Shown here: in pieces, positions 7,707-18,376 of the stretch | Layout: every line of letters starts with the position of its first letter | Position numbering within the stretch: position 1 is the first letter of the stretch | DNA from: Verrucomicrobiia bacterium | Lineage (GTDB): Bacteria > Verrucomicrobiota > Verrucomicrobiia > Verrucomicrobiales > DEV007 | Assembly (NCBI GenBank): GCA_030427505.1 | Contig: JAUICH010000004.1 | Coordinates: forward strand, 62,001-126,000 | DNA: 64,000 nucleotides | Direction: 5' to 3' | Notes under the pieces: model-generated | What the model was told of the DNA's origin: nothing | The model's input: the letters and a program-made list of their open reading frames with translations, nothing else | Databases searched by the model: none | Made by a program: the position numbers and the translations under genes

Positions 7707-8834
7707 ATGATCCCCGCCCCCATGAAAGCCCGCGCCGCCGTTCTCCGCGAACCTGGAAAACCCCTCACGATTGAGGAAGTGGAAGTGCTCCCGCCTGGCG
7801 TGGGAGAAATAACCGTGCGGATGAAAGCCGCCGGCGTCTGCCACAGTGACTATCACGTCATGTGTGGCGACCTGGCCATGCCGCTCCCCATCATCCTGGG
7901 ACATGAGGGCGCGGGGGTCGTGGAAGCCGTGGGCGAAGGCGTCACGAGCCTCGCGGTGGGCGATCACGTCATTCCCATCTGGCGCACCTCCTGCGGTATT
8001 TGCGAATATTGCGCCAATGGCCGCCCCGCCCTGTGCGACGTGGGCACCGCCATGCGTTTCACCGGCCTGATGCCGGATGGAGACACGCGCTTCCGCTCCT
8101 CCTCTGGGGAGTCCATCCGCCATTACGCGGGGGTCTCCACCTTTTCGGAACTCACCACCATGCCGGAGGCGTCCGCCGTGAAGATTCCGGCGGACTTCGA
8201 CTTGAAGAAGGCGGCCCTGATCGGCTGCGGGGTCATCACGGGCGTCGGAGCGGTTTTCAACACCGCCGAGGTCCGGCTGGGCGCCACCGTGGCGGTGATC
8301 GGCTGCGGCGGCATTGGCCTGAACGCGGTCCAGGGCGCCGCCATGGCGGGCGCCACGGAGATCATCGCGGTGGATGTTCACGCCAAAAAACTGGAGGACG
8401 CCGCCCGGATGGGCGCAAGCCAACTGGTGAACGCCGGGGAGACCGATCCCGTGGAGGCCATCAAGGCGCTCACCGGCGGCCTGGGCGCGGACTACACCTT
8501 CGAAGCCATCGGTCTGGCCCCCACCATCGAGCAGGCCTACGCCGCCACCCGGAAAGGCGGCACCTGCACGGTCATCGGCATTTCTCCAGCCGACATGACG
8601 GCGTCCATCAACGTCAATCAGCTGGTGTATGCGGAGAAGACGCTCAAAGGCTCGCTCTACGGCTCCACCCGGCCACGGATCGATCTCCTGAAGCTTATCG
8701 AACTCCATCGCCACAAGCGGCTCCTGCTGGACGAGCTGCTGACCCGGACCTACGCCCTGGACGAGATCAACGAGGCCTATAGCGCCCTGACGAAGGGCGA
8801 AGTGGCCCGGAGCCTGATTGTTTACGGGGAATAA
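7707..8834 (+). CDS. Zinc-dependent alcohol dehydrogenase (class III-like MDR family)
   Basis: A 375-residue medium-chain dehydrogenase that interconverts alcohols and aldehydes with NAD(P). Catalytic zinc ligands are visible as GVCHSD (Cys), GHEGAG (His/Glu) and IGCGVITG (Cys). The structural-zinc lobe has four cysteines in C-x2-C-x2-C-x7-C spacing (TSCGICEYCANGRPALC). The cofactor fold is VIGCGGIGLNAVQGA. It resembles S-(hydroxymethyl)glutathione/NDMA-dependent type enzymes, but the substrate is not evident. The start could be the ATG at 7722 (MKARAAVLREPG), which fits family N termini better. It is translated just after the sulfatase. Confidence 0.92.
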   Translation: MIPAPMKARAAVLREPGKPLTIEEVEVLPPGVGEITVRMKAAGVCHSDYHVMCGDLAMPLPIILGHEGAGVVEAVGEGVTSLAVGDHVIPIWRTSCGICEYCANGRPALCDVGTAMRFTGLMPDGDTRFRSSSGESIRHYAGVSTFSELTTMPEASAVKIPADFDLKKAALIGCGVITGVGAVFNTAEVRLGATVAVIGCGGIGLNAVQGAAMAGATEIIAVDVHAKKLEDAARMGASQLVNAGETDPVEAIKALTGGLGADYTFEAIGLAPTIEQAYAATRKGGTCTVIGISPADMTASINVNQLVYAEKTLKGSLYGSTRPRIDLLKLIELHRHKRLLLDELLTRTYALDEINEAYSALTKGEVARSLIVYGE

Positions 8835-8850
8835 GGCCTATTTCCCCGTA
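8823..8850 (+). terminator. Inverted repeat over the alcohol dehydrogenase stop codon
   Basis: Perfect 9-bp arms TACGGGGAA (8823-8831) and TTCCCCGTA (8842-8850) form a hairpin that includes the stop codon. No T-run follows, so termination would be weak or Rho-assisted. The second arm ends 3 bp before the first DnaA-box-like 9-mer. Confidence 0.5.
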
Positions 8851-8853
8851 GAG

Positions 8854-9061
8854 TTGTTCACATTGGCTCCCCGGGAAGCCCGCAATCATTTTTCGGAGTG
8901 ACCGTCAACGGTTTTGAGGTGAAATCCGGACATTTTTTGCGTTTTCCACGGGTTATTCACACCTCTCTGGAAACGTTCCACCTTACGTAAGGAACGTAAA
9001 AAGCAGGTTGTTCACGAGTTATTCACAATTTGGGGCGGTACTTTTCCCCAGGTTATTCACA
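8854..9061 (+). promoter_or_regulatory. Cluster of five DnaA-box-like 9-mers
   Basis: Within 208 bp of non-coding DNA the + strand carries TTGTTCACA (8854-8862), TTATTCACA (8953-8961), TTGTTCACG (9008-9016), TTATTCACA (9019-9027) and TTATTCACA (9053-9061). A sixth, TTGTTCACA, lies at 9581-9589. These match the DnaA consensus TTATNCACA at eight or nine positions and all point the same way. The region sits between the alcohol dehydrogenase and icd and has no convincing open reading frame. It could be a replication origin, a DnaA-titrating site, or a DnaA-controlled promoter region for icd. dnaA and dnaN are not in the window. Confidence 0.6.
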
Positions 9062-9111
9062 TTCGCTTCTTCCGGCTTCCCATGGTTCCCCGATGAGGCC
9101 AAAGAGTCGAA

Positions 9112-9146
9112 TGTTCCACCACCTGTTCCACGTCTGACGTGGAACA
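9112..9146. repeat. Split parS-like palindrome with an extra half-site
   Basis: TGTTCCACGT (9124-9133) and ACGTGGAACA (9137-9146) are perfect 10-bp inverted arms separated by CTG. A further TGTTCCACC lies at 9112-9120. The arms equal the halves of the conserved chromosomal parS site (TGTTYCAC plus GTGRAACA), but the centre is 7 bp longer than in a true parS. It may bind ParB weakly, bind another dimeric regulator, or be a degenerated site. Confidence 0.5.
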
Positions 9147-9150
9147 ATGG

Positions 9151-9171
9151 AATCTAGAATGACTCTAGATT
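9151..9171. repeat. Perfect 8-bp inverted repeat around TCTAGA
   Basis: AATCTAGA (9151-9158) and TCTAGATT (9164-9171) form a perfect inverted repeat with a 5-bp spacer, starting 4 bp after the parS-like palindrome. The size and spacing are typical of a dimeric regulator operator. No binding protein can be named. Confidence 0.5.
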
Positions 9172-9310
9172 GAGGCCGGTCATTTCTCCGGAAACTGGAT
9201 TCCGCTCCGATGTAGAAAACAGACCGCGCTAAAGGGTTCGCCTGGCTCCTTCGGGGTTAAGGATAGGTATTTTGGAGACGCTCACGCCCATTGAATCCTC
9301 ATAAGGCGCT

Positions 9311-9343
9311 CTTTTTAAATGTGTTGCGATACATTTTAAATTC
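9311..9343. other. AT-rich imperfect palindrome in the 8.8-9.7 kb gap
   Basis: TTTAAATGT (9314-9322) and ACATTTTAAA (9331-9340) are near-perfect inverted arms in the most AT-rich part of a GC-rich gap. It could serve as a DNA-unwinding segment if the neighbouring boxes form an origin, or as promoter DNA for icd. The rest of the gap (9344-9580) shows nothing I can name. Confidence 0.35.
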
Positions 9344-9660
9344 CTTGGCAATTCAGATTCCCCAAGGAAAAAATGGATGCATTCTGTCGCGGCATCGGTA
9401 GGTTGCCCCTCCTTTCGGCGCGGCCCCTGCTGTCAGTCTAGCCTCGCCAGCAGGTGGCGTCCGGAGGGAGACCTCCCACGGAAGGAGAATGCGTAAGACA
9501 TTGCCCGGCCCTCGCCCAGGCGGCTCTTCAGGCATTTACTGGCAATTTTTACGACAAGAGAAAGGACCGATTCCAAAAAGTTGTTCACATTTAGCCCCGA
9601 ACACCTCTCGACCTTTTTCATTCCAAAAGAAGATCAACCTAAGTAACCGCACCTAAGCTA

Positions 9661-10938
9661 ATGCCCTACGAGAACATCACTCCGCCCGAAGGCGGTAAGG
9701 TCAGCATCGACGCTGACGGTAAACTTCAAGTCCCGGACAATCCGGTCATCCCTTTCATCGAAGGTGACGGCACCGGACCGGACATTTGGCGCGCTTCCCA
9801 GCTCGTTTTCGACGCCGCGGTGGAAAAGGCCTACGGCGGCGCGAAGAAGATCGTGTGGTTCGAGGTTTACGCCGGAGAGAAGTCTTTCAATAAGTTCAAA
9901 GACGGGGTGGATGACCTGGCCAAGGCCTGGCTGCCGGACGACACCCTGAACGCTTTCCGCGAATACCTGGTGGGCATCAAAGGCCCCCTCACCACCCCAG
10001 TCGGTGGCGGCATCCGCTCCCTGAACGTGGCCCTGCGCCAGATCCTGGATCTGTATGTCTGCCTGCGGCCGGTCCGCTGGTTTGAAGGCGTGCCCAGCCC
10101 CGTGAAGCGGCCCGATCTGACGGACATGGTTATTTTCCGTGAAAACTCGGAAGACATCTACGCCGGTATCGAATTTCAGCAGGGTGAAGAGGACACGGAA
10201 AAGTTCCTGAAACTGTTTGAAGAGAACTTCCCGGCCCGTTACGCCAAGATCCGTTTCCCCAGCAGCACCGGCATCGGCATCAAACCCGCCTCCAAGGAAG
10301 GCACGGAGCGCCTGGTGCGCGCGGCGGTGGAATACACCATCGCGAACAAGCGCAACAGCCTGACTTTGGTGCACAAGGGCAACATCATGAAATTCACGGA
10401 AGGCGCCTTCCGCGACTGGGGTTACGGCCTCACGAAAAACGAATACGGCGCTCAGGACCTGGATGGCGGCCCCTGGCAGACTTTTGAGAAGGACGGCCAC
10501 ACCGTGACGGTGAAAGACGTCATCGCCGACGCCTTCCTCCAGCAGATCCTGACCCGCCCCGCCGAATACGACGTGGTGGCGACGATGAACCTGAACGGCG
10601 ACTACATCTCCGACGCTCTGGCGGCCTGCGTGGGCGGGATCGGCATCGCCCCCGGCGGCAACATCAACTATGCTACCGGTCACGCCATCTTTGAAGCGAC
10701 CCACGGCACGGCGCCGAAGTACGCCGACCTGGACAAAGTGAACCCCGGTTCCGTCATCCTGTCCGGCGAAATGATGCTGCGCCACCTGGGCTGGACGGAA
10801 GCCGCCGACCTGATCCTCAAAGGCATGGACGGCGCCATCGGCAGCAAGAAAGTCACCTACGACTTCGCCCGCCAGATGGAAGGCGCCACGGAGATCAAGT
10901 GCTCCGAGTTCGGCCAGAACATCGTGGACCACATGTAA
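9661..10938 (+). CDS. icd: NADP-dependent isocitrate dehydrogenase
   Basis: A 425-residue enzyme of the E. coli ICD type, converting isocitrate to 2-oxoglutarate and CO2 in the TCA cycle with reduction of NADP. The fold starts [16 protein letters not shown]. The isocitrate loop [13 protein letters not shown] holds the serine that is phosphorylated in enterobacteria. [28 protein letters not shown] and [20 protein letters not shown] are further family blocks, and the length is normal. ATG is at 9661, and a strong terminator follows 50 bp after the stop. The long upstream gap with DnaA-box-like sites may carry its promoter. No aceK is seen. Confidence 0.97.
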
Positions 10939-18076: not shown

Positions 18077-18376
18077 GCCCCTGACTTCATCTCAGGAAGG
18101 TATTCGAGGCAAGCGTGAAAGCGTACGGATTTACGTCCGGCCTCCCGTTTCCACACCGGCCAGAAAGTACTGACGAAACGTGAATAAAATCCGCTCCGGC
18201 CCCATCTAACCGGGTAGCGAATTAAGTCTGCAAACCAAAGCGGCGGCCCATAAAACCTCGTTCATTTGGAATGACCTATGAAAGATGCGGCGCCTCCCCG
18301 AGCACTCAGTTCGTAACCTATAGCAACTGCTGATACAGCAACCCCACATAAACTATCACCCCAAATTACCCACCCC

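Follow-up and report, generated by a model that had tools for sequence, protein, structure and literature searches.

The window analysed here, a stretch of 64,000 nucleotides, corresponds to positions 62001-126000 of contig C45 in a 6.41 Mb draft genome of 56 contigs. A gene for a zinc-dependent alcohol dehydrogenase (7707..8834, + strand; Pfam PF00107 and PF08240) is followed by the isocitrate dehydrogenase gene icd of the Iso_dh family (9661..10938, + strand; Pfam PF00180 and comparison with relatives), in agreement with the flanking genes named in an earlier note on this DNA. Between the stop codon of the former at 8834 and the start of the latter at 9661 lies an intergenic gap of 826 bp with a GC content of 0.50 (8835..9660), which carries a cluster of DnaA boxes. 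An exact scan for TTRTTCACR finds six sites in this gap on the + strand (8854, 8953, 9008, 9019, 9053 and 9581) and none on the - strand, reproducing the five same-strand 9-mers within 8854-9061 and the sixth at 9581 that the earlier note had reported; the seventh site of the 64-kb window lies at 18179 on the - strand. The exact scan returned two single boxes TTGTTCACA, at 8854..8862 and at 9581..9589, the latter 80 bp 5' of the icd start, both on the + strand. The other four sites belong to 20-nt copies at 8942, 9008 and 9042, grouped by a repeat finder as family D1, each of which consists of a weaker box, two bases and TTATTCACA: TTTTCCACG-GG-TTATTCACA (8942..8961, second box 8953-8961), TTGTTCACG-AG-TTATTCACA (9008..9027, boxes 9008-9016 and 9019-9027) and, with a weak first box, TTTTCCCCA-GG-TTATTCACA (9042..9061, second box 9053-9061), all on the + strand. 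A doublet pattern also matched all three. As read from the sequence, the copies are double DnaA boxes on the same strand with a 2-bp spacer (8942/8953, 9008/9019, 9042/9053), situated some 600-720 bp 5' of icd. This pairing at 2 bp is a regularity that the earlier note did not contain. The boxes were read with the generally known DnaA-box consensus.

Two further elements were noted in the gap. An inverted repeat, TGTTCCACGT-CTG-ACGTGGAACA (9124..9146, no strand assigned), was recognised by reading the sequence and by the places of GTTCCAC/GTGGAAC; its half-sites are parS-like and separated by a 3-nt spacer. It was considered as a parS site and rejected, as a parS scan with two mismatches did not return it. 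GTTCCAC/GTGGAAC motifs of this kind, resembling parS halves, recur in box-bearing gaps of several genomes (L206, L204 and L253). The most AT-rich 40 nucleotides of the gap (9314..9353, no strand assigned; 72% AT) constitute a weak candidate for an unwinding element. Beyond the box families two inverted repeat pairs were found, neither overlapping the boxes, and an RNA element was rejected, its three matches all scoring far under the gathering scores.

How unusual is such an accumulation of boxes? In 20,000 first-order shuffles of the 826-bp gap no site occurred 19,547 times, one site 444 times and two sites nine times, never more; six are observed. Shuffled versions of the 64-kb window contained on average 0.99 TTRTTCACR sites and at most 4. 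The whole genome (6.41 Mb) contains 104 sites, compared to 36 for the reversed control. Among the 100 matches listed, sites at most 300 bp apart are found elsewhere only at C6:746160-746262 (four sites) and C29:4229-4281 (two sites, together with near matches ending in CACC), and since these are the only two other groupings among the listed places, the box density of the icd gap is uncommon in its own genome; a similar density in many other gaps was not found among these 100 places. A looser two-box pattern has seven matches in the genome: three fall in the icd gap, two belong to the C6 cluster, and the remaining two stand alone at C6:426027 and C47:118680. Scored for boxes per 300 bp, the icd gap reaches 31.7, the highest value of six stretches of this genome that were scored, compared to 24.5 for the C6 and 22.5 for the C29 cluster. 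Thus neither the word scan nor the two-box scan nor the scored stretches revealed a denser cluster elsewhere in the genome. By the same score, origin-like loci of relatives spread from 10.7 (G040) over 15.2 (G013), 25.0 (G055) and 27.5 (G043) to 35.5 (G037), and the value of the icd gap falls inside this spread. The two other same-strand clusters, C6:746160-746262 (L003:8161-8263) and the one on C29 (L004:4218-4401), also lie in gaps without dnaA. Neither qualified as origin: at the C6 cluster the GC skew is 0.000 to the left and +0.054 to the right over 50 kb, at the C29 cluster it is negative to the right, and there is no clean switch at either.

The identity of the words as DnaA boxes can be judged from the places they occupy in a set of 57 genomes. 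In G055, a single-contig genome with a DnaA domain match at 385-879, the sampled skew is negative up to about 1.11 Mb and positive thereafter, and at this turn (1111234-1111341) lie TTGTTCACA, TTATTCACA, TTATGCACA and again TTATTCACA. A similar layout is found in G043, likewise a single contig, at 1237894-1238002, the minimum of the sampled cumulative skew. Both clusters are located between two parS sites, one exact and one with a mismatch, 2-4 kb away, and both contain a box followed by TAGAAGAAGAAG, a DnaA-trio. The regions G055:C1:1111164-1111450 (L246:7164-7450) and L252:7700-8109 of G043 are probable oriCs, with divergent TTATTCACA, TTGTTCACA and an AT-rich element beside ribD, more than 1.1 Mb from dnaA. 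The DnaA-trio consensus and the DnaA signature of E. coli are general knowledge. When a trio pattern is derived from the sites of G055, G043 and G040, it matches seven times, in seven of the 57 genomes; the additional matches are in G047 (between its two parS sites), G049, G052 and G042, and the site of G013 is missed. In G036 a cluster of TTATTCACA and TTGTTCACA lies between hemB and dnaA, just 5' of dnaA. Because the same words stand at skew-switch origins with trio and parS in G055 and G043 and 5' of dnaA in G036, it is very probable that this order uses TTATTCACA as its DnaA box. The reading of the words as DnaA boxes in the earlier note is thus well supported by these placements and by the 2-bp doublet architecture. 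A search for the DnaA signature matched 27 of 33 distinct loci, all with GGRDHGTV. A two-box pair at 2639184 of G055 lies near the skew maximum and warns against equating a pair with an origin.

The doublet is not confined to the window. The pattern TTNTNCNCRNNTTATTCACA has 39 sites in 31 of the 57 genomes and its reversed control none in 57; 25 genomes have one doublet, five have two, and the genome of the window has four, three of them in the icd gap. Nine of the 35 doublets in other genomes adjoin dnaB (G014, G015, G024, G038, G039), icd (G013, G034, G046) or dnaA (G004). According to their coordinates, the remaining 26 of 35 lie away from these three genes, and linkage to dnaB or icd is therefore rejected as a rule for all doublets. 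For the 30 best dnaB loci of 56 genomes (the own genome included), the 700 bp 3' of the gene contain 12 copies of TTATTCACA in nine loci, all on the dnaB strand and none on the other, compared to a shuffle mean of 0.12; the dnaB of the window's own genome, on C48, has no box downstream. Within the 900 bp upstream of icd, G013, G034, G008 and G046 have boxes, four of the 13 other icd loci of the order (the split gene of G053 is left out of the 13), whereas 80 loci taken from named records, 20 of them classed by title as Verrucomicrobia and kin, have none. Linkage to icd does not hold as a rule either, as nine of the 13 other loci of the order (families f2, f3 and f5 and genome G025) are without a box, including all six f2 loci. 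Relative to icd the boxes stand at -25 in G013, -179 and -508 in G008, -449 and -499 (other strand) in G034, and -225 and -569 in G046, the distances between box and icd ranging overall from 25 to about 810 bp. The doublet of G013 ends about 16 bp 5' of icd, and in G008 dnaB comes first, then the gap with the boxes, then icd. In G004 a double box (C98:6856-6875; L231:2723-2742) lies about 140-500 bp upstream of dnaA, the start codon of which is uncertain, on the opposite strand.

Is the icd gap the chromosomal origin? With six boxes and three doublets it has the DnaA-box cluster of an oriC. The earlier note had remarked that this would be an unusual origin location, and the analysis speaks against an origin here, with no skew switch, a parS pair on another contig (C51), no DnaA-trio and matching gaps of relatives that keep their mean skew sign; an origin at the icd gap is made unlikely by these sequence features. 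Skew sampled in 2-kb blocks to 66 kb on each side is -0.039 ± 0.008 on the left (24 blocks) and -0.040 ± 0.011 on the right (30 blocks), so that the skew minimum looked for at the gap is not seen as a sign switch on these flanks. Over 15 kb the values to the left and right are -0.029 and -0.066, over 35 kb -0.048 and -0.016 ± 0.013. The cumulative skew has a local minimum near 23 kb of the window and is still falling at the window end. For comparison, the skew at loci taken as origins changes from -0.028 to +0.059 in G055, and, with centres picked after viewing the profile, from -0.139 to +0.140 in G038 (mnmG/parS) and from -0.079 to +0.172 in G040. In the box-bearing relatives, the matching gaps have left and right skews of +0.140 and +0.038 in G008, +0.109 and +0.087 in G034, and +0.208 and +0.303 in G038 (dnaB gap), and in G046 +0.141 on the left and +0.046 and +0.138 in the two blocks on the right; the mean skew sign is thus unchanged across the matching icd or dnaB gap in all four. 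The most AT-rich 40 nucleotides of five origin-like loci of relatives have AT fractions of 0.70-0.82, compared to 72% AT in the icd gap.

The pattern used for parS is a commonly known variant of the site. Scanned with it, the genome has one exact pair only, at C51:5731 and C51:6615, and no site near the icd gap of the kind seen near the boxes in G055, G043 and G047. The site at C51:6615 lies inside a gene that we take from its protein sequence, as we do its homologues, to be mnmG-like, followed by one small gene and a ribD-like gene. The pair is at least about 76 kb away from the icd gap under any joining of contigs, and the skew of C51 is positive from the contig end onward. The mnmG-like gene was found in nine genomes (11 pieces), with ribD-like genes beside it in five. 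A skew switch is clear at or near parS in G055, G043, G038, G040 and perhaps G013, ambiguous in G036, G037 and G046, and not present around parS in G048, G034 and G008. In these last three, parS inside the mnmG-like gene is without a skew switch over 20-40 kb (L319, L320, L323-L324); the smc-side cluster of G048 lies in noisy skew. No DnaA-trio was found in the icd gap, and a looser trio scan of the genome returned four scattered matches, none of them on C45 or at a box cluster. Its own oriC was not located, positions 1-40000 of C51 being without a strong box cluster, and the neighbourhood of dnaA was rejected, since there is no box cluster around the DnaA domain at C6:531553. In G013 a box with the trio TTTTCCACAGTAAGAAGAAGAAG lies 5.7 kb from parS, on another contig than its icd doublet.

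What, then, is the box cluster before icd? That the boxes have come together by chance is hardly credible: none of the 20,000 shuffles reached even three sites, the reversed doublet is missing from all 57 genomes, and a chance cluster is already refuted at the sequence level. Very improbable, too, would be sites of another DNA-binding protein that shares TTATTCACA by coincidence. It could be argued for this protein that position 5 is T here and C in E. coli, and that several gaps contain GTTCCAC motifs alongside the boxes. Against it, the words recur at origins marked by a skew switch, a trio and parS, as well as immediately 5' of dnaA in G036, and the DnaA boxes of Epsilonproteobacteria as a rule have T at position 5 (PMC5043019). 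A DnaA operator that raises or lowers icd transcription and so couples central metabolism to replication appears possible, if rather unlikely. All boxes lie upstream of icd and on its strand, boxes precede icd also in G013, G008, G034 and G046 and in none of the 80 named records, and in E. coli, DnaA bound upstream of genes also acts as a regulator of transcription (PMC11317965). Against an operator, the doublets are about 600-720 bp away from icd here, with no consistent distance among relatives, the same doublet also occurs 3' of dnaB with a gene other than icd next in line (a carB-like one in G038), and a single weak promoter-like match was found, no more than expected by chance.

It could also be imagined that the icd gap is the oriC of this genome, relocated and with skew and parS yet to catch up, or a second functional origin; the ancestral origin at mnmG/ribD/parS would have lost its boxes and initiation would have moved to the expanded doublet site. 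We consider this distinctly improbable given the missing skew switch and DnaA-trio, the parS pair with mnmG-like and ribD-like genes on C51, and the single mean skew sign kept across the gaps of G008, G034 and G046 and the dnaB gap of G038. It draws some support from the highest box score among the scored stretches of the genome, the AT-rich 40-mer at 9314-9353, origins in the order that are not tied to dnaA, and the disagreement of skew and parS in G048, G034 and G008, because of which both marks can mislead. Since the scans (box clusters in C51:1-40000 and trio) found no other oriC and the gap is the strongest scored cluster of its genome, relocation keeps a small share of the probability. 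Altogether, the origin marks that were tested (parS, skew switch, trio) are absent at the icd gap, in a genome whose oriC the scans did not locate. We therefore lean, with modest confidence, towards a DnaA-binding locus outside the origin that probably titrates or modulates DnaA in the manner of datA or the DnaA-box clusters (DBCs) of Bacillus subtilis and perhaps also regulates icd. Among the alternatives offered by the earlier note, the DnaA-regulated or titrating locus would thus fit best and the origin would not.

Like datA and the DBCs, the icd gap holds several DnaA boxes in one gap, and it is best read as a further case of the DnaA-binding clusters that are known to exist outside oriC. 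E. coli datA has five boxes (PMC5295017) and holds or modulates DnaA (PMC5295017, PMC4585315); together with DARS1 and DARS2 it resembles the icd gap as a non-coding DnaA-box cluster, and lies away from oriC, as the icd gap probably does (PMC5295017, PMC4585315). In E. coli, datA promotes the hydrolysis of DnaA-ATP. It works with IHF (PMC5295017), and DARS2 reportedly with IHF and Fis (PMC4245941). The E. coli loci differ from the icd gap in their C5 box core, gene context and lineage. In B. subtilis, removal of six DnaA-box clusters leads to early initiation, and the same source (PMC5295017) also doubts a significant role of these clusters. They lie outside oriC, as is probable for the icd gap; the icd gap differs by its same-strand doublets, spaced 2 bp and placed before icd. 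The DnaA of E. coli has a preference for double boxes with 2-3 bp between them (PMC11317965), and the boxes of all three icd-gap doublets lie within this spacing. The double box of purH, with an upstream box matching at 7/9 positions and a perfect downstream box (PMC11317965), is similarly closely spaced, purH having one doublet and the icd gap three. Identical TTATTCACA and TTGTTCACA connect the icd gap to the probable oriCs of G055 and G043. These differ from it by boxes on both strands, a trio, a skew switch, a parS no more than about 4 kb away and an AT-rich element, of which the icd gap shares only a weaker AT-rich stretch.

With respect to the box itself, these sites have a TTCAC core, T standing at position 5, in common with Epsilonproteobacteria, for which the core was proposed as a hallmark (PMC5043019); it appears to be used in this order too, together with a GGRDHGTV DnaA. 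The boxes of Helicobacter pylori oriC all have one orientation, as do those of the icd gap (PMC4285127 for H. pylori). The Epsilonproteobacterial boxes are oriC boxes, and that class is said to have changed the DNA-binding motif of its DnaA, in contrast to the GGRDHGTV found here.

How could such a locus act? DnaA would be expected to nucleate on the strong TTATTCACA boxes and to bind each double box cooperatively as a dimer, contact across the 2-bp spacer helping it to occupy the weak upstream box. With three doublets on the same strand, an ordered assembly of DnaA could start from here. Most likely, the locus would hold some of the cell's DnaA, or alter its activity, and thereby help to time initiation elsewhere, a function modelled on E. 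coli datA and, possibly, the B. subtilis clusters. DnaA at the icd gap may additionally tune icd. The boxes and doublets, the fact that they are enriched and recur across the order, in some cases at icd or dnaB gaps, and the lack of the tested origin marks are directly computed; DnaA binding, titration and an effect on timing or on icd we infer from them.

There are few bacteria in which the control of initiation is understood in detail. The present results suggest that a DnaA double-box element is widespread in the order, mostly with one copy per genome and in some cases next to dnaB or icd, and that several relatives have an mnmG/ribD/parS origin carrying a DnaA-trio; both the doublets and the mnmG/ribD/parS loci are testable sites for DnaA titration and origin mapping. 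A literature search returned no title on such a locus in this bacterial group among the matches listed. An origin away from dnaA has already been published for gut bacteria including Akkermansia muciniphila (PMC10197239).

Several loci deserve mention in their own right. Contig C23 of the window's genome (L002, 3183 bp) encodes a second, distant protein with a Bac_DnaA domain (38 bits). An origin-like site on C135 of G013 (L318:8430-8640), a genome of the same family, has TTTTCCACA followed by TAAGAAGAAGAAG and an AT-rich stretch. In G040, a single-contig genome, a box stands with a trio motif where the skew switches (C1:497100-497700; L326:9100-9700), and by eye a second copy with a weaker box follows about 0.5 kb further on. 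Finally, contig C32 of G037 (L327:1856-2081) contains eleven words resembling DnaA boxes, many at steps of 11-12 bp and arranged in two opposed halves; the contig also carries five parS-like sites and an apparent tRNA gene.
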